From Fimbriimonadaceae bacterium (GTDB lineage Bacteria; Armatimonadota; Fimbriimonadia; Fimbriimonadales; Fimbriimonadaceae), in assembly GCA_019638795.1 (NCBI GenBank), contig JAHBTB010000002.1:248001-312000 (forward strand): a DNA stretch of 64,000 nucleotides, given 5' to 3'. The position numbers and the translations under genes were made by a program. Within the stretch, counting starts at the first letter, position 1, and each line of letters opens with the position of its first letter. The notes beneath the pieces are model-generated. The model saw only the letters and a list, made by a program, of their open reading frames with translations, was not told the DNA's origin and ran no database searches. Below, in pieces: positions 2,404 to 43,093 of this stretch.

Positions 2404-2964
2404 ATGGACCGCGCCGCCGCCTATGAGCTGATGTGCCAGCACACCCCCAGCGATTCGCTCCGGCGGCACATGTTGGGCGTGGAGTGTTGCTTGCGCTGGT
2501 ACGCCACCCGACTCGGCGCCGACGTGGAGCAGTGGGGGCTGGCGGGGCTCCTCCATGATTTCGACTACGAACAGCACCCCGACGAGCACCCGCTGTGGGG
2601 GATCAAGTTGCTGGAATCCATGGAGGTTGACCCGGCGGTCGTCCGGGCCGTCGCCGCGCATTATCCGCAGAAGACCGGCGTCGAACCGGAGTCTTCCCTG
2701 GAGCGCCATCTCTTCGCTTGTGACGAGCTGAGTGGGTTTGTGACGGCGGTCACCTACGTGAGGCCCAGTCGCAGTGTCCATGAGGTCGAGGTGAAAAGTG
2801 TCGTGAAGAAACTGAAGACACCCGCCTTTGCCGCCGGTGTAAGCCGCGACGATGTGGCCCGCGGGGCGGAACTGGTCGGCCTCCCGCTGGAAGAGCACAT
2901 CGCCAACGTACTGGCGGCGATGCAGGGCGACGCCGAGGCTCTGGGCCTGGCCGGACTTGCTTAG
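2404..2964 (+). CDS. HD-domain phosphohydrolase (HDIG-like)
   Basis: This is a 186-residue HD-superfamily metal-dependent hydrolase; the substrate is unknown. Metal-binding residues are visible as His in LRRHMLGVE, the HD pair in GLLHDFDYEQHPDEH, and later His in RAVAAHY. This is the layout of small HDIG proteins often annotated as hydrolases of nucleotides or related phosphates. The ATG at 2404 was chosen because an upstream extension of the frame runs antisense-like through the preceding gene and because TAGACT lies 7 bases before it. Its stop interlocks with the stop of the convergent LptC-like gene in TTAG at 2961-2964. Confidence 0.8.
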   Translation: MDRAAAYELMCQHTPSDSLRRHMLGVECCLRWYATRLGADVEQWGLAGLLHDFDYEQHPDEHPLWGIKLLESMEVDPAVVRAVAAHYPQKTGVEPESSLERHLFACDELSGFVTAVTYVRPSRSVHEVEVKSVVKKLKTPAFAAGVSRDDVARGAELVGLPLEEHIANVLAAMQGDAEALGLAGLA

Positions 2965-4367
2965 CCGCGCCGCCCGCCGCCGATCGGTCCGGTGACCGAG
3001 GGTGGTGCCCCTCCGGTTGTCCCGCCTCCCGACCCGCCACCGGGCTTCTCGGGCGTCTCGTCGTCGCGCACGGTGACGACCCCTTCTGGTTCCGACGCCT
3101 CCATCATGTCGTCGCCCTTCTTGGTCGAGACGAGCACATCGACGCACTGAAGGTCGTCGCCCAGGCTGTTCTTGATCCGGGCGTCCTTCTTGCCCTCGCG
3201 GCTGACGAGTTTGAGCCGGTCCTTTTCGCCGTCGTAGAACGCCTCATTGGCCCAGACCATGCGCCAGTGGTTGCCGGGAAGCTCTTGGCGGGCCTGGGGG
3301 TTGCCGGTGATGACCGCCCGCCGGCTGCCCTTCTTGTACCAATACTCGATGCGGTCGGCGACGACCGCGGCGGGGTATTGGCGCAAGTTCTCCCGGTCGC
3401 GGACGGCGTCTTCCTGGGACTTCCCGGCATCAGTGGCGGGTGCCGGGGGGCGGCTCTGGCTGATGGACTCAGGGACGACGGGGGCGAGGGGCGGTATCTG
3501 GACCTCGACCGGCTTGTTGTCGGTCTCCGGCTTGACCAACATGTGGACGTTGCCCTCGAGGACCGACCGGCCTTCCTTGCGGTAGATGGTCACCTTGTCA
3601 CAGGTCATGTTGGCGTCCGTGCCGTAGTAGCGGACGTCACCTGTGATGGTCAGGACGTCGTTCTTACGGTCGAGGGAAAGGGACTTCCCATAGGCGATCG
3701 TGTCGGACGACTCGGCGCGGGCGTTCTGGCTGGTCCAAAGGTCGTTGGTGAGGTGCGACTTCTCGCCCTTGATCTTCCATTCCTGCCGGCCCTGACCGCT
3801 GGCAGCGGCCTGGCCCTGCCAATCAAAGGTGTTGACGAGGAGTTCTTGCTTGGCGAGGTCGAGGGTGACGCCGGCCGCCACCATGGCCCCGTCTTCGAGC
3901 CGGCCACTGACGGCTCCGTCCACACGGAGGACCCGACTCGTGCCGTCGTAGCTGAACCGGGGTACCCCAAGGTCGAGGTGCTCGTTCCATATCCGGGCGC
4001 CCGACTCGGCGGTCAGCGACTTGTTGAACGTCCCATATGTGGCAGTCGTCGCCGAGAAATTGTAGACATCACCGGAATCAGACGTCAACTTTCCGTCGGT
4101 GAGCCCGACGAGGTCGAGGATCGAACGGTCACGGCGCGCGGTGGCTTCCTTCACGGACGCGTAGGCGACCAACCTCCCCCCGATAAAACTTCGGAGCTGA
4201 AACGCCCCTAGTTCAATGCCTTGCTCCGGCGTGTTGGCGGGACGGAAGTCCGCAAAGGGGTCGACGGAGAACAGTCTGACCGTGCCCCACCAGCAAGCCC
4301 ACGCCGCCCCCGCCATGACGGCGGCTCCGGCGGCGAAGCGGACTGACCGGTTACTGAAGGGTGACAT
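2961..4367 (-). CDS. LptC/OstA-like periplasmic export protein
   Basis: This 468-residue protein has one N-terminal transmembrane segment (about residues 10-30), as in LptC. It continues with long beta-rich stretches resembling LptC/OstA (LptA-type) beta-jellyroll repeats, for example VLTITGDVRYYGTD, SVLEGNVHMLV and RAVITGNPQAR. Such proteins carry lipopolysaccharide or a similar lipid from the inner to the outer membrane. The C-terminus is a Gly/Pro-rich tail. The gene is last in a minus-strand run and its start overlaps the preceding lipoprotein gene by 17 bases, so the two are probably co-translated. The family assignment is by pattern and the transported lipid is not known. Confidence 0.7.
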   Translation of the reverse strand: MSPFSNRSVRFAAGAAVMAGAAWACWWGTVRLFSVDPFADFRPANTPEQGIELGAFQLRSFIGGRLVAYASVKEATARRDRSILDLVGLTDGKLTSDSGDVYNFSATTATYGTFNKSLTAESGARIWNEHLDLGVPRFSYDGTSRVLRVDGAVSGRLEDGAMVAAGVTLDLAKQELLVNTFDWQGQAAASGQGRQEWKIKGEKSHLTNDLWTSQNARAESSDTIAYGKSLSLDRKNDVLTITGDVRYYGTDANMTCDKVTIYRKEGRSVLEGNVHMLVKPETDNKPVEVQIPPLAPVVPESISQSRPPAPATDAGKSQEDAVRDRENLRQYPAAVVADRIEYWYKKGSRRAVITGNPQARQELPGNHWRMVWANEAFYDGEKDRLKLVSREGKKDARIKNSLGDDLQCVDVLVSTKKGDDMMEASEPEGVVTVRDDETPEKPGGGSGGGTTGGAPPSVTGPIGGGRRG

Positions 4368-36065: not shown

Positions 36066-37721
36066 TCAGATGACGCTTTTGCGGGCGAGGTCTTCGCCTT
36101 TGGCTGCCTTGACGGGCCGGACATTGGCCACCGCTTCGGGCTCGAAGTCCAGCAGCTTCAACCAGTCCTCGGCCGCGTCGGACTTCGGAAAGATTTCGTT
36201 CTCCCGGTACTCCGCTTCGACGGCAGCTTTCAGGTCGTCCAGGGTCAACCCGTGCGGTGTGCCCGGGTCGGCGACGGCCCGCCGGATCGCCGCGTCCTTG
36301 GCTCGGTCTACGATCGACTTCAGCAACGCGCCGCTCACCATGTCGCGCCAGTGCAGAGTCTCCGTCGTCCCGTTGCGTAACTGGATCTTGAGGAACTCGG
36401 TGTGCTTGTTGGCCCGCCACAGGTGCTCCAGGGCGGCTTCCACGAGGTGCGCCCGGGCGCACTCTTCGCCGCCGTGCTCCTTGACGAGTCCCGGATCCAT
36501 GGGCAGCCGCTCGTGAAGATAAATCGAAAGGATCTCACGACTTGACTCCTTGTCCGGGCGGACCACCTTGACCTTGCGGTCGATGCGTTCCGGCCGCAGG
36601 ATGGCGGGGTCGATGTAGTCGGGGCGGTTCGAGGTGATGACGAGCACCACGTTCTCGAGTTCGACCAGACCGTCCATCTCGGCGCAGAACTGGGGCACCA
36701 CCGTGTTGCTGATGTTCAGCCAACGGCCACTTGACCGGGTGCGGAGGATCGCCTCGGCCTCGTCGATGAAAACGACGACAAGCTGCCCCTCCTTCGCCTT
36801 GGCTCGGGCGGTGGCAAAGATCTCGCGGACCATGCGCTCGGTCTCGCCCAGCCACATGTTCAGCACCTTAGGGCCGCTGATGTGGAGGAAGCATTCCTTC
36901 ACGTCTTTGCCTAGGCGTTGGCTATAGTCCTTGGCCAAGTTGTAGGCCGTGGCTTTGCCGATCAGGGTCTTGCCGCAGCCGGGCGGCCCGTAGAGGAGGA
37001 TGCCCTTGACCGGCTTCTTGTCAAACCGCTCATAAATCTCCGGATAGAGCAACGGGTGCTCGATCGTCTCGCGAATGATGCGGATCGCCTCGTGCTGTCC
37101 GCCCACCTTTGACCACGGGGTCTCGGGAACCTCTTCGACAAAGTAGTCCCGCGCCGCCCGCTTGACAAAGTGCTCGACCGCCATTCGGCCCGCCGCGTCG
37201 AGGCGGACCTCGTCGCCTGCCTTGATGGGTAGGTAGGCGAGGGCGGCGGCCCGGCCGACGAGCCGTCCGGGAGAACCGGGGGCGTCGTTTCCCACCCGGA
37301 GCCGTCCGTCGGCGAGCACGTCGCCGACGTTGACGAGCGGGCCGGTGTCCCCTTCGGGGACTGTCCCCACCACCACATAGGCTTCGTTGAGCCTCACCTG
37401 GATGCCGGGCTCGAGGGTTTCGGGATCGACGCTGGAGTCGACGAGCGTGATGTAGTCGGTGTCGCCAAGGACGACCTGCACCTCGTCGTCGTCCATCAGC
37501 CGCGTGAGGACGGCGATCCGGTTGGCAGGCTGGGTCAGCTTTTGGTACGCCTCCTCGTACTGGGAGATGAGCTCCCTGTGCTCACGGGCGTCACCCTCCA
37601 TCCGTTGCAACTCCTGGCGCAAGGCCGCCAGCAAGTTGGCGGCCTTGGCGTCTCCGGCCGGAAGTTTTTCCTCGAGCCGGGCGATCAGTTGCGACAAGCG
37701 GTCGCCCAGTGGAGAGTTCAT
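36066..37721 (-). CDS. arc: ARC/Mpa-type proteasome-associated AAA+ ATPase
   Basis: This 551-residue ring ATPase resembles Mpa/ARC, which unfolds substrates for the 20S proteasome in Actinobacteria. The N-terminal coiled coil spans about residues 5-65, and the double OB region about 70-190 (VQVVLGDTDYITLVDSSVD). The AAA+ module has Walker A GPPGCGKT (about 245-252), Walker B VVVFIDEAE (about 315-323) and an arginine-rich RPERIDRKVKV. The C-terminus ends ARKSVI and lacks the GQYL/HbYX tail that docks Mpa onto the proteasome. No prcBA, pup/UBact, dop or pafA gene is in the window. The ATG follows TAGTAT by 8 bases. Confidence 0.88.
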   Translation of the reverse strand: MNSPLGDRLSQLIARLEEKLPAGDAKAANLLAALRQELQRMEGDAREHRELISQYEEAYQKLTQPANRIAVLTRLMDDDEVQVVLGDTDYITLVDSSVDPETLEPGIQVRLNEAYVVVGTVPEGDTGPLVNVGDVLADGRLRVGNDAPGSPGRLVGRAAALAYLPIKAGDEVRLDAAGRMAVEHFVKRAARDYFVEEVPETPWSKVGGQHEAIRIIRETIEHPLLYPEIYERFDKKPVKGILLYGPPGCGKTLIGKATAYNLAKDYSQRLGKDVKECFLHISGPKVLNMWLGETERMVREIFATARAKAKEGQLVVVFIDEAEAILRTRSSGRWLNISNTVVPQFCAEMDGLVELENVVLVITSNRPDYIDPAILRPERIDRKVKVVRPDKESSREILSIYLHERLPMDPGLVKEHGGEECARAHLVEAALEHLWRANKHTEFLKIQLRNGTTETLHWRDMVSGALLKSIVDRAKDAAIRRAVADPGTPHGLTLDDLKAAVEAEYRENEIFPKSDAAEDWLKLLDFEPEAVANVRPVKAAKGEDLARKSVI

Positions 37722-37764: not shown

Positions 37765-38994
37765 CTAGTTACGGTTGCCCTTGGCGGTGGCCGCGGTCAC
37801 CGGAGAAAGGGCGGCGAGGGTGGCCCGGGCGACGGAGAGGTCGGGGTCGCCTTCGCTCCCGACCGTCCCGGCCAGCGACCGTTCCTCCCCCGCATCGTCC
37901 CAGCGGCCGACGACGGTGACGTGCTTGGCGTCGTCGGCGTCGAGGTGAAAGAAGACATCGTCGACCCGTACCCGGGCGCCCGACGCGCCGACCACCGCCT
38001 CGACCGTGGCGCGGGCGACCGCCATCGCCATGGGCCCGCGGCCCTTGAACGCGGTGCCGACCCCGGTCGTACCGTCCCGCACCGCCTCGACCGTCGCCAC
38101 CGCCGGCTCGGTCGACTCGACCATGACCCGCAACCCCTCGGGGAAGCCCTTCGTCACGGCCCCCTTCTTAACGGACTTGTTCTCCGTCATCGCCTTGCTG
38201 GCCAGGTTGATCAGGTTGTCAAGGGTCGACTGGGCGTGGAGGTGCGACGACTCGTCGGTGCGACTGGGCGACCGACCGCGCTTGCCTCCCGCGATGCCAT
38301 GGGAGAACGTCACCCTTTCGTCCAGCCCCTTGACCACAAGCGGTTTGCGCAGAAGGCCTTGGACGAAGGCTTCCGTGTCGGCCCGGTTTCGCCTTGTCGC
38401 GATCACAAACTCGTCGCCGGCGTAACGGACAAGGACGTCCCTTTCTGGGTCGATGCTGGTCTTCAGGTGGTCGGCCAAGGCGCAGACGACCCGGTCGCCG
38501 AATATGTGCCCGTGCTTCTTGTTGAACCGGCCAAAGTCGTCGATATCGAAGAGCACGACGGTGATCTCGTTGTCCGCCTCTAGCTGGCTGACGCCCCATT
38601 CCCGCAGAGCGTCGCTCCAACTCAGGCCGGTCATGGGGTCCCAGGAACGGCCGAGTTCGATCAGCAAGCCGAGAGGGGACAAGAGACCGAGGAACTGGTC
38701 GCCGTCAAAGACGGCGGCCACGGCGCTCTGGCTTCCCACGAAGTCCTTCGCCGCGTCCCGGACCGGTTGGTCAGGCGAGAGGTCCAGACGGCGGCCCTGC
38801 ATGGCCTCCTTGACCGTGGCCTCGGCATCGCTGAGAATCGCCGCTTCGATCGTGACCACGCCCAAGAACTTGCCGTCGTCGACGACGGCGACCGCAGACT
38901 GTCCCGACCCGGCCATCAGGGTGAGCGCGGCCGAGAACGTGCTGTCGGACGACACCGACAGCCGGTTCAGCTCTAGGTCGCGGACGCGTCGCAT
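37765..38994 (-). CDS. CBS-pair diguanylate cyclase with an unclassified C-terminal domain
   Basis: This 409-residue signalling protein contains a CBS pair (about residues 1-110), a GGDEF domain (about 120-275) and a C-terminal domain of about 120 residues. The active-site loop reads RYAGDEFVIA, an AGDEF form that is usually still active, with VVLFDIDDFGRFNKKHGH as the metal-binding part. No inhibitory RxxD lies in the usual place. The C-terminal domain looks duplicated: VARATVEAVVG and VARATLAALSP end similar halves. CBS domains may sense nucleotides. The start has a clear GAGGTGA Shine-Dalgarno site, and the gene lies 63 bases after the DnaA-like gene. Confidence 0.82.
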   Translation of the reverse strand: MRRVRDLELNRLSVSSDSTFSAALTLMAGSGQSAVAVVDDGKFLGVVTIEAAILSDAEATVKEAMQGRRLDLSPDQPVRDAAKDFVGSQSAVAAVFDGDQFLGLLSPLGLLIELGRSWDPMTGLSWSDALREWGVSQLEADNEITVVLFDIDDFGRFNKKHGHIFGDRVVCALADHLKTSIDPERDVLVRYAGDEFVIATRRNRADTEAFVQGLLRKPLVVKGLDERVTFSHGIAGGKRGRSPSRTDESSHLHAQSTLDNLINLASKAMTENKSVKKGAVTKGFPEGLRVMVESTEPAVATVEAVRDGTTGVGTAFKGRGPMAMAVARATVEAVVGASGARVRVDDVFFHLDADDAKHVTVVGRWDDAGEERSLAGTVGSEGDPDLSVARATLAALSPVTAATAKGNRN

Positions 38995-39057: not shown

Positions 39058-40047
39058 TCATTCGGCACAGAACCGGTCAAAAACGGCATTCTTGCAAGCC
39101 TGTACGGAGGCGGAAGGGCGACCTTCACCCATCCTCTTGGCGACGGCAGAGGCCATGGCGAAGGCCCGCGCCGGTTGGACGTCCAAGAAGCTGGCGACCT
39201 CGCGTTCGGAGAGGCCGACCTCGTGTAAGAGGATATACGCGCAGACGTCGCTGACGCTTCTCTTTGTGGGCCTACCCCAGTCGGCAAGCGTCTGGCTCAC
39301 CGCGTCATGCACCTCGTCGCGGGGGTCCCAACCGTTTTCCCCGATCAAATAGGGCATCAGGACGCCGCACGCCCGGCACGCGTCTTCGACCCCGGTCCAG
39401 TTGTGCTTGACCAGGGTAAGGCGCTGGAGGGCGCCGCGGACCGACCGGCCGTTGCCGCGGAGGTGGCGGGCGATGAGCCGGACGACGGCCGGGCCTAGGA
39501 GGACACCTTCGGCCCGGGCCAGGGACCGGACCACCGCTTCGCGTTCGGGTCCCTCCGGTTCACCCATGGTGCCGACCGTCCATTCGCGGGACGCCAGCCA
39601 GAGCGGCGGCCGCATCCGGTGCCCAGGGGCGACCGTAAAGCTGAGCAGTGTCGGACGGTGCAACCGGAGCCGGCTTTCCAGGGCTTGCCGCAACTTGTGG
39701 GTCGACCGCGGGTTCTTCGTCGCGTCCTGGGCGTCGTCGACGACGACCGGGCCGATGTCTCCGACGAGGGCCTTGCTCTCCACCCAGCGGGTCGCCGGGA
39801 CGACAAAGACACCTCGCCCCGTGGTTTCGCAGAGTGCGCGGGCCGTCGCCTCCAGCAGGGTCGTCTTGCCCCAGCCTGAGGGACCGACGATGACGATATG
39901 GCGCGAAGGGTCGGTGGAAAACTCCCTGGCCAACTCGACCGCCCCTTGGTTGCACGCCAAAGTCACGACAGGATTGGTGCCGGTAGCGTCAACTCTGCCG
40001 CCCAAAGGCTGTGCACATGAAGGTGGACGCAATGCGGTTCCGGCCAT
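39058..40047 (-). CDS. DnaA-like AAA+ ATPase with a divergent DNA-binding domain
   Basis: This 329-residue protein resembles DnaA domains III and IV. Walker A is GPSGWGKT (about residues 55-62), Walker B VVVDDAQD (about 101-108, compare IDDIQ in DnaA), and sensor II-like RSVRGALQRL (about 201-210, compare VRELEGALNRL). The C-terminal helical part (about 260-306, SVSDVCAYILLHEVGLSEREVASF) follows DnaA domain IV, but the RDHTTV signature that reads the DnaA box is replaced by DVQPARAF. DnaA domains I and II are absent. It could be a regulatory DnaA paralogue (Hda/DnaA-like) or a transcriptional ATPase. The 209-base gap upstream has a perfect DnaA box. Confidence 0.7.
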   Translation of the reverse strand: MAGTALRPPSCAQPLGGRVDATGTNPVVTLACNQGAVELAREFSTDPSRHIVIVGPSGWGKTTLLEATARALCETTGRGVFVVPATRWVESKALVGDIGPVVVDDAQDATKNPRSTHKLRQALESRLRLHRPTLLSFTVAPGHRMRPPLWLASREWTVGTMGEPEGPEREAVVRSLARAEGVLLGPAVVRLIARHLRGNGRSVRGALQRLTLVKHNWTGVEDACRACGVLMPYLIGENGWDPRDEVHDAVSQTLADWGRPTKRSVSDVCAYILLHEVGLSEREVASFLDVQPARAFAMASAVAKRMGEGRPSASVQACKNAVFDRFCAE

Positions 40048-40256
40048 TTCGAGGAGTCTCGTCCCAACGGACTGGGAACCTCATTGTCCCGGTCCGGACG
40101 CGGACGGTTCAAGACCGGGCATGCAAAAATAACGACAAGTACAAGGCTAGAACCTGTAGTAAACGTGTCTTGCAAGCCTATATTCAAGCTGGGTCGCGAA
40201 GGTCAGGAAGATTGCCGATCTTTCAACCGCTTATCCACACCGGCCGGTGAACTCCT
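40048..40256. other. AT-richer intergenic gap with a DnaA box
   Basis: This 209-base gap lies upstream of the DnaA-like gene and downstream of the cytochrome gene, both on the minus strand. Bases 40120-40190 are markedly richer in A and T than the surroundings, with runs such as CAAAAATAA, and it contains the palindrome CTTGCAAG at 40169-40176. Short open frames here look non-coding. It could be a regulatory region or an origin-like element. Confidence 0.45.
40231..40239 (+). promoter_or_regulatory. Perfect DnaA box TTATCCACA
   Basis: The sequence matches the E. coli consensus TTATCCACA exactly. I found only this one perfect box in the gap, where an origin would normally show several. Confidence 0.55.
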
Positions 40257-41453
40257 TCAGTGGGCGATCTTCGGCCAGGCCTTCGCGAAGTCGAACCCCG
40301 GGCTGTGTTCCAGGTTGTGGCATTTGGCGCACGTGTCTGGGCCGACCCGGGCTGGTTTTTCCGTTGCCGGGGCGGTGGCGTGTTTTTGCAGTGGGCCATG
40401 GCAAGACTCGCAGCCGACGTCGGCAAGGCCTGGCGTCGTCACCCGGTCACGGAAGCCGACTTTGCTGTCCAGGCCGACGACATGGCAGGGAAGGCACTCG
40501 GGGTCCCGCCCTTGGCCCTTGTCTTCCAGTGTCTTCAGGGCGTGGGCGTGGCCCGACTTACGCCAGGCCGCGTCGGCGGCCGCGTGACAGGGGGCGCATG
40601 CGGCCGAGCCGGCGTACGAGGCGGAGTCTGTGCGGGGCAGGGCTTCGACCAGCTTCTCACCCTCCACACGCTTGAGGTAGCGCCGAAACACACCGGCGAC
40701 TTCCTGGGCGGCTGGGCTGGGTCGGGAGACGTCGAAGCCAGGCCCTAACTCAATCCCCGTCGCCGACTTGAACGACCCACCGGACCACTCGGCCCGCACC
40801 AGCGCCTTTCCCCGCTCGCCGCAACTGACGAGCAGGGTCTGGCCGACCTTGACCGGCTTGGTCGTCAACGAAGAACTGCGGTAGGCGACCAATCGGAGGG
40901 ACGGGTGCTCGGTGGCGAGCTTCCTGGCCCGGTCTTGCCCCCCGGTGGTGAGGACGATGTTGGTGCCTGGCTGGACCGCCACCGGCTGGCTCGGGTCGTC
41001 CACCGTGACGCCGAAGGGGCCCTTCGCCATGTCGGTCAGGATCTCCATGCCCGGGCCGGTGAAGACCCGCCCGATCCAGCGGAACTTGCCGAGGGCCGCC
41101 AGGTTCCCGGCGAACCCGGGGCCGCTTCTCAGGTCTTCCTCGGACAAGAGCGCGGCGTCGACGCGGTAGTAGGCCATCGATTCAGCGAGGGCCTCGGCCT
41201 TGAGTTGGTCTTGGCGGGTCAGCCCGCCCGAGAGCCGACCCATGTCCAGCACGAGCGACCGGGCGGGGTCAAGCCCGTCCAACGCCTGGGCCCGGCGCAC
41301 GATTCCTCCCGTCATGGGCGAGGTGCAGCCACATGGGGACAGGTAGCCCTGGGTGTCGCCCATGATGACGACCGTCCAGGTGTCGGCGGGTCGTGGCGCG
41401 GCGACGCCGCAACCCACCGCCAAAGCCGCGACGAGCCAAAGAAGGAGTTTCAC
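40257..41453 (-). CDS. Tetraheme cytochrome c with metallophosphatase-like N-terminal domain
   Basis: This is a 398-residue exported protein with a signal or lipoprotein-like N-terminus (ALAVGC). The first 230 residues resemble the 5'-nucleotidase/metallophosphatase-type domain that precedes multiheme cytochromes, with the conserved GDTQGYLSPCGC (about 32-43) and GGIVRRAQALD. The C-terminal part carries four CxxCH heme-binding motifs: CAPCH (286), CLPCH (320), CESCH (348) and CAKCH (375), like the cytochrome c554 family. It probably moves electrons in the periplasm; the partner is unknown. The GTG start overlaps the stop of the DUF1573 gene (GTGA), so the two are translationally coupled. Confidence 0.82.
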   Translation of the reverse strand: MKLLLWLVAALAVGCGVAAPRPADTWTVVIMGDTQGYLSPCGCTSPMTGGIVRRAQALDGLDPARSLVLDMGRLSGGLTRQDQLKAEALAESMAYYRVDAALLSEEDLRSGPGFAGNLAALGKFRWIGRVFTGPGMEILTDMAKGPFGVTVDDPSQPVAVQPGTNIVLTTGGQDRARKLATEHPSLRLVAYRSSSLTTKPVKVGQTLLVSCGERGKALVRAEWSGGSFKSATGIELGPGFDVSRPSPAAQEVAGVFRRYLKRVEGEKLVEALPRTDSASYAGSAACAPCHAAADAAWRKSGHAHALKTLEDKGQGRDPECLPCHVVGLDSKVGFRDRVTTPGLADVGCESCHGPLQKHATAPATEKPARVGPDTCAKCHNLEHSPGFDFAKAWPKIAH

Positions 41454-43063
41454 CGCACCTCGGCCGCCACGGGGACCTCGATGAGTGGCTGGGCGTTGTC
41501 GTCCGTGCGGATCTTGATCGTGCCGCTCAAGCTACCGGTCAGGGCCTTGCCGTCAAACTCGGCGACGACCCGCCAGGTGTCGCTGGACACCCTCTCCGGC
41601 CACACCTTCAGGTGGTCGTTGTCAACGCTGGCGCCCTTGACGGTGAAGGGGCGGCCAGGTCGTGTGACAAAGACGGCGTAGCGCCGCGGTGCCTTGTCGA
41701 TGAGTCCCAGGTAGAGCTGGCCCGGGTCGGCGGCGATGCCGCGCTGGACGTTGAAAGCGTGGTAGAGGTGATGCCACACCTTGTCGTCGGTTTCGACGAC
41801 AAGGGTCGCCAGCATGCGACCGGTGACCGACCCTGGGCTGATCAGGAGGTCGATCTTGTAGCCGTGTCGGTCCTCGGTGGGGCCGCCGAGTTCGGGGTCG
41901 GCCATCTTGCCCGACCAGGGTTCGAAGGCCACGGCGGCGTTGAGACCCTGGACATAGACCCGCTTGACTTTGAGGTCCACGCCTTTGGCGAGGGCCAGAT
42001 AATAGGTCGCCTTGCCGCTGTCGTCTTCCATGTAGACCAGGCCCCGGCCCTTGTCGCGCAGGAACCGGTAGGCCGGCTTGACGTTGCCTTTGACCTCGAC
42101 GATCGTCATCGGCCGGTCGGGGTCACTGGTGGTGACATAGAGCTGCTTGTGGAACGGGCCGGGGAACATCGTCGTGTCGGCCCCGAAGGTGACCCGGGTG
42201 TTTTCGCCCGGTGAAAGGATGCTGGTCGCGCGGATGGAGAAGCAACTGCAGTCAGGGACCACTTGGAGGGCGCTCCGCCCGTCACCCAGGTTCGTGACCT
42301 CGAAGACTCCGTACGCCGGTTGCCCCTGGGTCACCTCGCCAAAGTCAACGACGGTGGGATTGACGCGGGTATGGGCTTTGCCGGCGTACACCTGCTTCCG
42401 GTCCTTGACCGCTTTGCGCAGGAACGCGGCGAGTTCAAGGTCGCCGACCGCGGCGCCCTTCTCGGCACCGTTGACCGCATGCGGGTAGTTCGCGATGGTG
42501 TCAGCCCGGGCCATAGCCGACGTGCCGGGTGGCAGTTGGCCAAGCCCCAGGTACTGGCCGATGAGGAACACGGTCTCGTTCTGGACGTGGATGTCGTCGA
42601 TCGAGGTCGTGTCGTTCACCCGGTGCAGAGCGACGACGCCCTCCACCCGTGGGTCGGCCGGGTCGTCGCTGACAAACGACACGAGACCCTTGGGGAGTTT
42701 GGTGGTCTCGTCAGGCGGAAGCTTGTCGACGAAGCCGATCTTGATCTGACCCTTCTCCGCCACGGTCACGGTGAAGTGAGGCAGGGCGGCCTTCCACACC
42801 TCGACGGCCTTCTGGACGGCGGCCCGGAAGCCGGGCCGACGGATTTCGGGGACACCGGCGAAGTCAAGTTGGATCGCGACCTTGTCCTCAGGCAGCCTGT
42901 CCGCCAGGCGGGCCGCCTTCTCCCAGTCTTTGGCGTTGGTGGCGTCGACAACCTTCTGGACCGTCGCCTGGAACGTCCGGTCGGCACCGGCGGGGACCAC
43001 CGGCATCGGCTGCTGGCCGATCCGGTTCAGCGCGCAGGCGAGGACAAAGGCGGTCAGCATCAT
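41450..43063 (-). CDS. Exported protein with degenerate metzincin-like region and DUF1573 domain
   Basis: This 537-residue protein has a signal-like N-terminus and its ATG at 43063 within GTG-ATG-ATG (any of these could start). About residues 85-190 resemble a matrixin/metzincin fold, but the zinc motif HExxHxxGxxH is replaced position for position by FLIGQYLGLGQ, so no metal site remains. A DUF1573 Ig-like domain follows (about 236-330, VVDFGEVTQGQPAYGVFEVTNLG, CSCFSIRATSILSPGE). The last 200 residues are further beta-sandwich-like. It is coupled to the tetraheme cytochrome gene and may serve it as a periplasmic partner; that is an inference. Confidence 0.68.
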   Translation of the reverse strand: MMLTAFVLACALNRIGQQPMPVVPAGADRTFQATVQKVVDATNAKDWEKAARLADRLPEDKVAIQLDFAGVPEIRRPGFRAAVQKAVEVWKAALPHFTVTVAEKGQIKIGFVDKLPPDETTKLPKGLVSFVSDDPADPRVEGVVALHRVNDTTSIDDIHVQNETVFLIGQYLGLGQLPPGTSAMARADTIANYPHAVNGAEKGAAVGDLELAAFLRKAVKDRKQVYAGKAHTRVNPTVVDFGEVTQGQPAYGVFEVTNLGDGRSALQVVPDCSCFSIRATSILSPGENTRVTFGADTTMFPGPFHKQLYVTTSDPDRPMTIVEVKGNVKPAYRFLRDKGRGLVYMEDDSGKATYYLALAKGVDLKVKRVYVQGLNAAVAFEPWSGKMADPELGGPTEDRHGYKIDLLISPGSVTGRMLATLVVETDDKVWHHLYHAFNVQRGIAADPGQLYLGLIDKAPRRYAVFVTRPGRPFTVKGASVDNDHLKVWPERVSSDTWRVVAEFDGKALTGSLSGTIKIRTDDNAQPLIEVPVAAEVR

Positions 43064-43093
43064 CACTCCGTAGACGGGCCCAAGGGGCCCGGA

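Follow-up and report, generated by a model that had tools for sequence, protein, structure and literature searches.

A DnaA-like gene and its neighbours

The window analysed here, a stretch of 64,000 nucleotides (G000:C2:248001-312000), comes from a genome (G000) of 2.70 Mb in 18 contigs, and its relevant features are collected in Table 1. A first, sequence-only reading had marked positions 39058 to 40239 as a divergent DnaA-like ATPase. The lower limit of this extent was correct, but the open reading frame, on the minus strand, reaches only to 40047, and the remainder is part of the gap, up to a DnaA box. The gap had been described as AT-richer and as carrying a perfect box, and both features were confirmed: its GC content is 53.6% compared to 65.2% for the window, and 0.39% of 1276 sliding 209-bp windows were as AT-rich.

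Table 1. Features at and around the DnaA-like gene (positions in the window)
Feature	Position	Strand	Basis or remark
Proteasomal-type (ARC/Mpa-like) AAA ATPase, next gene downstream	36066..37721	-	possible third operon member
CBS-GGDEF protein (AGDEF here), conserved downstream partner	37765..38994	-	locus comparison
DnaA-like AAA+ ATPase paralog of 329 aa, limited to DnaA domain III and a degenerate domain IV	39058..40047	-	ORF with ATG start; homology
C-terminal region (residues 240-329), lacking an RDHT-type motif, aligned to DnaA domain IV	39061..39330	-	weak when tested alone
Walker B, residues 101-105, VVVDD	39733..39747	-	family alignment; coordinates by arithmetic
Walker A, residues 55-62, GPSGWGKT	39862..39885	-	family alignment; coordinates by arithmetic
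AT-richer upstream gap, 209 bp, 53.6% GC, presumed promoter location	40048..40256	.	GC count
Perfect DnaA box TTATCCACA, reverse to gene	40231..40239	+	position and orientation recur in relatives
Cytochrome-like gene, upstream boundary	40257..41453	-	homolog immediately upstream in 24/37 other loci

CBS domains sense nucleotides and GGDEF domains make c-di-GMP. In 36 of 38 loci, a gene combining both lies 3' of the DnaA-like gene (hereafter the paralog) and in the same orientation. This count comprises 34 of the 37 other loci, in which the gap satisfied a fixed rule, L069, where a long ORF start overlaps by 277 bases, and the window itself; the partner was missing in L051 and L054. It was also present in all six loci from families f5 and f3, where homologs of the window's upstream genes were not seen. 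The GGDEF domain, the mark of a diguanylate cyclase, was recognised by PF00990 with 60.2 bits, and the active-site motif of the 36 partners reads GGDEF in 31, AGDEF in four, including the window, and GGDKF in one. In the window, the CBS domain of the partner is N-terminal, and about 120 residues in its C-terminal part are poorly conserved and have no Pfam match at E <= 0.01. The next gene in the window and in 17 of the 37 other loci is that of the proteasomal-type ATPase; some of the loci compared are truncated. Since the gaps between the three genes measure 63 and 43 bp in the window, it is plausible that the paralog, the GGDEF gene and possibly the ATPase gene share a transcript. On the other side, the cytochrome-like gene and a DUF1573 gene form a pair (40257-43066) next to prfB.

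Relationship of the protein to DnaA and Hda

Single-sequence searches with the window protein returned weak AAA+ matches, and its matches to the models of full-length DnaA (TIGR00362, 29.6 bits, cut-off 343.9) and Hda (TIGR03420, 28.6 bits, cut-off 194.8) were weak and remained far under the cut-offs. When a profile of 27 paralogs was compared with the PDB, DnaA of Thermotoga maritima ranked first (E 8.9e-21), and the alignment was collinear, with profile positions 21-313 lying on positions 98-421 of a chain of 440 residues. Using hhalign, 38 paralogs were aligned over 315 columns (99.3%, E 2.9e-20) with 14 DnaAs of the lineage, which were selected from 30 loci by requiring the RDHT motif and a Walker A motif. 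The domain III region alone gave 99.3% and an E of 2.2e-20 (reversed control, 0.3). The match of the C-terminal region alone to DnaA domain IV was weak (E 0.0032, probability 9.9%; reversed control, 0.21), so that a domain IV is probable rather than proven. PF08299 was neither among the 17 Pfam families matched by the window protein nor, for the paralogs as a family, among the 25 listed of 35. The roughly 90 residues beyond the AAA+ domain, which are aligned to domain IV in the full profile, form five helices in a low-confidence model, and the paralog has probably kept a degenerate helix-turn-helix domain IV. The AlphaFold models were poor (mean pLDDT 40 and 50), and the AAA+ proteins (RFC, RuvB, DnaA) retrieved by Foldseek with the second of them, at TM-scores near 0.2-0.3, were given no weight. 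As had been noticed from the sequence, domains I and II are missing: the alignment starts only near column 177 of the 532 in DnaA, and nothing in the paralogs matches the part before domain III.

At E <= 0.001, the NCBIfam DnaA model and the Hda model TIGR03420 were each matched by 26 of the 27 paralogs, and NF051883 (HdaA) by five. We also considered a helper ATPase of insertion sequences and rejected it, since two IstB models each matched one of the 27 paralogs (E <= 0.001) and PF01695 matched two (E <= 0.05). Like DnaA (TIGR00362; PF00308 and PF08299), the paralog has the motif order of the AAA+ domain III, a lid and a collinear helical C-terminal region. Unlike DnaA, it lacks domains I-II and an RDHT-type motif, stays below the cut-off and coexists with a true DnaA. 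Like Hda and HdaA (TIGR03420, NF051883), it is an AAA+ protein that derives from DnaA, lacks domains I-II and exists next to DnaA, but it differs from them in its additional domain IV-like region, its GGDEF partner and its upstream DnaA sites, and it scores below that cut-off, too. As a family, judged by profile comparison, the paralogs are clearly related to DnaA and align with its domains III-IV, without domains I-II and without the box-reading motif.

The Walker A, Walker B and sensor II motifs that had been proposed were confirmed as GPSGWGKT, VVVDD and GNGRS, and hhalign pairs R201 of the last with the sensor II arginine of DnaA. Across 38 aligned family members, the Walker A lysine is kept in 37, D104 and D105 of Walker B in 35 and 30, respectively, and the sensor II arginine in 28, while the arginine-finger region falls in a gap of the alignment with the lineage DnaAs. 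In the paralog of L044 (genome G030, 2856-3998), arginine replaces the lysine of Walker A (GPAGWGRT). Because of the incomplete retention of the sensor II arginine and of the second Walker B aspartate, together with the arginine-finger gap, it is doubtful whether some members can engage in ATPase cross-talk with DnaA.

In DnaA, domain I recruits the helicase and an RDHT-type motif reads the DnaA box. The claim that domain IV lacks this signature was borne out, since the window protein reads VQPARAF at the position of RDHT, and the residues that prevail in the equivalent columns of the family are P, G, V and Y. Other parts of the helix-turn-helix-like region are nearly constant (E281 in 38/38, A285 in 36/38), and the recognition region has changed to the type P-x-x-x-[YF] (P292 in 29/38, Y or F296 in 34/38). 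This pattern would suit a transcription factor that has left replication, in which the changed helix-turn-helix reads a new site and controls genes, perhaps for surface, motility or c-di-GMP functions, through nucleotide-dependent oligomerisation, and in which the upstream box merely places the gene in the DnaA regulon. The altered Walker B of some members, the adjoining GGDEF gene and a fliS gene about 4.5 kb from the paralog fit such a role. It is nevertheless somewhat doubtful, since the box is of the type also present in an oriC-like element upstream of recF (see below), which points to replication control.

A canonical dnaA with the RDHT motif is located elsewhere in the genome, at C5:217139-217615 (216.4 bits; ORF of 523 aa). 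Together with the homology to domains III-IV, this upholds the description of the window protein as a divergent DnaA-like ATPase. A joint dnaA-dnaN locus, for which a search had been advised, was not found: the full-length dnaA lies on C5 and dnaN on C15. A scan of the genome contigs revealed one relative. Bac_DnaA matches above the cut-off were obtained in 58 of 61 genomes, this one included, and some of the weaker additional matches are paralogs. Among the matches listed for 291 Armatimonadota genomes, the paralog (profile matches of at least 121 bits) was present in 80 of 85 genomes of family f1, to which the window belongs and which we infer to be the Fimbriimonadaceae, and, of two sister families, in seven of eight genomes of f5 and in the single one of f3, and it was found in none of 18 genomes of f2, not in the one of f4, nor in any other family; these counts cover the listed genomes and leave out 33 without a match as well as the weakest matches. 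The strongest match listed outside the carriers, of 88.1 bits, is a frame of DnaA length. The f1 genomes in which no paralog was found are G001 (the sole genome of the same genus, 93% complete, in 130 contigs), G004 (a fragment at a contig edge), G022 (72% complete), and G029 and G157 (both of 1.5 Mb). On this distribution, the paralog appears to be an order-restricted relative of DnaA that accompanies the normal DnaA. Among the matches listed from the open-licence literature, none described such a DnaA paralog in Armatimonadota, which does not prove its absence, and the paralog looks like an undescribed regulator.

DnaA boxes at the paralog and at recF

TTATCCACA occurs once as a perfect copy in the window and three times in the genome. 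Since a backwards control pattern occurs six times, one perfect box alone is not significant; it is more than chance because it recurs at the same place and in the same orientation in relatives. In 21 of 32 f1 loci, including the window and L032 (20 of 31 without the window), a site within one mismatch was present between 200 and 560 bp 5' of the Walker A codon. Of these 21 loci, 20 have such a site in reverse orientation, at 328-421 bp in 19 of them. By comparison, 300 permuted motifs in the same loci gave a mean of 1.63 and a maximum of 10. The six f5 and f3 loci were set aside in these counts, and L010 was omitted because L050 already represents its genome. With one mismatch allowed, sites in tandem at a distance of 10-12 bp were found in 16 of the 32 loci, a number reached by none of the 300 permutations; the window itself has a single box. 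With both results, an origin of the box by chance was rejected. A relaxed consensus, TTWTCCMCM, which was picked after the sequences had been seen, gave a reverse site in 23 of 32 loci (permuted mean 0.31, maximum 10), and fragments of the box make up the two most frequent 7-mers of the region (TGGAAAA in 18 and GTGGAAA in 17 of 32).

Exact TTWTCCACA was present at the upstream place in 12 of the 32 f1 loci and in two of 12 further genomes (G137 and G139, both of genus g19), and it was absent there from the g19 genomes G127, G131, G135 and G136. The 12 further genomes comprise 11 of 16 queried, among the matches listed, and G127, and a box about 0.8 kb upstream in G147 was not counted. Across the f1 loci, the upstream site recurs in position and orientation, but its sequence drifts. 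With both orientations and all positions within 700 bp admitted, four of the six f5 and f3 loci have a box with at most one mismatch.

The orientation and position of the box fit a regulatory site, and the promoter of the paralog is probably controlled by canonical DnaA. The proposal that the gene is a target of the true DnaA gains indirect support from the conserved predicted sites. A box belonging to the upstream cytochrome gene is disfavoured, since tandem sites are present in six of the seven f1 loci without a detected cytochrome homolog upstream, and since the four f5 and f3 loci mentioned above have a box as well. The locus can be compared with the dnaA promoter and with datA and DARS, the latter two being sites of DnaA titration or nucleotide exchange: as in these regions controlled through DnaA boxes, box-like sites, often in tandem and 10-12 bp apart, lie 5' of a gene of the DnaA family, but here they precede the operon of a paralog, and no box within one mismatch was found in the 20 kb around the canonical dnaA of this genome. 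We therefore considered whether the site cluster is mainly such a titration or nucleotide-exchange site, standing before the paralog by happenstance. The tandem spacing in half of the loci (16/32) is consistent with this, as are the negative result of a consensus promoter scan of the upstream gap and the distance of 127 bp from the start of the window box to the nearest TTGAAC element downstream. However, the sites accompany the paralog even where another gene lies upstream, as the six of seven loci mentioned above illustrate, and we regard a titration site as very unlikely.

Similar boxes were found upstream of recF. A box within one mismatch was present in 20 of 30 f1 recF upstream regions (200 permutations: mean 1.78, maximum 7) and tandem boxes in 19 of 29; one of the 30, L220, has almost no upstream sequence. 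An arrangement of box, spacer and DnaA-trio, the architecture being taken from PMC8287927, was recognised in 13 of the 29 regions, compared to a resampled mean of 0.07, and in none of the 32 regions upstream of the paralog. A stricter trio pattern without the box was found in seven (runs of at least 4) and five (runs of at least 5) of the 29 recF regions and again in none of the 32 paralog regions. In the source genome, the corresponding element, at about C2:235012-235048 upstream of recF (C2:233901-234965), consists of a DnaA box, a 13-bp spacer and a DnaA-trio-like repeat. It is separated from the paralog by about 52 kb and lies beyond the window by 13 kb. The neighbourhoods of dnaA and dnaN were rejected as oriC of this genome, since there was no box within one mismatch in 20 kb around either. 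The element upstream of recF is a candidate oriC for many f1 members.

GC skew was followed in samples covering about 14-17% of genomes G008 and G018, in a sample of G011 and, for the source genome, within the window. In G018, the skew switches between 869 and 1014 kb with recF at 931 kb, which supports an origin at recF; in G011, a noisy profile switches near 530-663 kb with recF at 459 kb, which gives rough support; in G008, the sampled skew gives none. According to PMC4072686, Fimbriimonas ginsengisoli has scattered dnaA, dnaN and recF genes and few boxes, and its recF lies at 1,929 kb and its skew-predicted origin at 5.13 Mb. The box positions that we obtained in G127 (4.34, 4.55 and 5.20 Mb) equal those printed there for F. 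ginsengisoli, on which basis f1 is taken to be the Fimbriimonadaceae, and no exact TTWTCCACA was found near 1.93 Mb in G127. Due to this discord and to the lack of an exact box near 1.93 Mb, an origin at recF may not apply to all f1 members.

It had also been suggested that the gap upstream of the paralog is a cryptic or alternative origin. The conserved box-like sites, the AT-richer gap, a shallow minimum of the cumulative skew at 38-40 kb, the proximity to recF in f5 and the unsettled recF origin in some relatives (the G008 skew, F. ginsengisoli) could be read in this way. Against it, the arrangement of box and DnaA-trio is confined to recF in this comparison (0/32 versus 13/29), and the sampled skew of G008 and G018 keeps one sign at the paralog locus, without a switch (the G011 sample is noisy). 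In the window, the skew dips from 1.25 to 1.11 within an overall rise to 2.03, and we read this dip as local. The sequence-only reading had named a distant skew minimum and a box not conserved in relatives as signs against an origin: the skew broadly points that way, apart from the shallow local minimum, but the box is conserved. Altogether, the paralog locus is probably not the replication origin, and an origin within the gap itself is highly improbable.

In four f5 genomes, a recF match was found near the paralog, at 0.7, 3.3, 6.6 and 6.7 kb, and in f1 the distance is 29-584 kb in 11 cases on the same contig. Given the closeness in f5, an ancestral position of the paralog near the origin is possible. 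In f2, a sister family without the paralog, exact tandem boxes are present in 12 of 14 genomes, compared to five of 37 in f1; this intriguing difference is, from the comparison of genomes, a single phylogenetic contrast. Six f2 loci of 20 kb (L201-L205 and L209; 16 kb in L205) each contain 9-11 exact boxes, mostly in dense arrays at places that resemble origins, while f1 recF upstream regions contain 0-3. These differences, and the recF proximity in f5, could mean that the paralog is an accessory initiator working with DnaA at oriC and, in the lineages that have the paralog, making up for an origin that is degenerate and poor in boxes. We consider this quite unlikely, because a single contrast is involved, the paralog lacks the helicase-recruiting domain I, and it was not found in G001, G029 and G157.

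A possible regulator of initiation

The reading that we favour, with a probability of about 0.42, is that the paralog is a DnaA-derived regulator, expressed together with a GGDEF enzyme from a promoter under canonical DnaA, which restrains or times initiation; this function is inferred. The regulator of replication put forward in the sequence-only reading would fit. Canonical DnaA would bind the upstream sites and thereby tie expression of the operon to the DnaA level or to initiation. The paralog, without domain I and unlikely to read DnaA boxes, would use AAA+ contacts to act on DnaA and, by a logic resembling that of Hda, would most likely restrain or time initiation. Metabolic signals would enter through its nucleotide state and through the CBS/GGDEF partner. 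In a more elaborate version, which is unlikely, the paralog and the CBS-GGDEF protein would form a signalling module that passes the nucleotide and c-di-GMP state through the DnaA-derived AAA+ protein to DnaA or to a box-poor oriC, with DnaA controlling the promoter of the module.

With domain III and a degenerate domain IV, and without the helicase-recruiting and box-reading parts, the paralog represents a natural experiment on DnaA-derived proteins, and the comparison offers a candidate origin upstream of recF for many f1 members. Should the paralog act on DnaA, it would add a regulator that is not of the Hda family, in a phylum where the control of replication has been little studied, and its link to a GGDEF protein would suggest a direct route from a second messenger to initiation.
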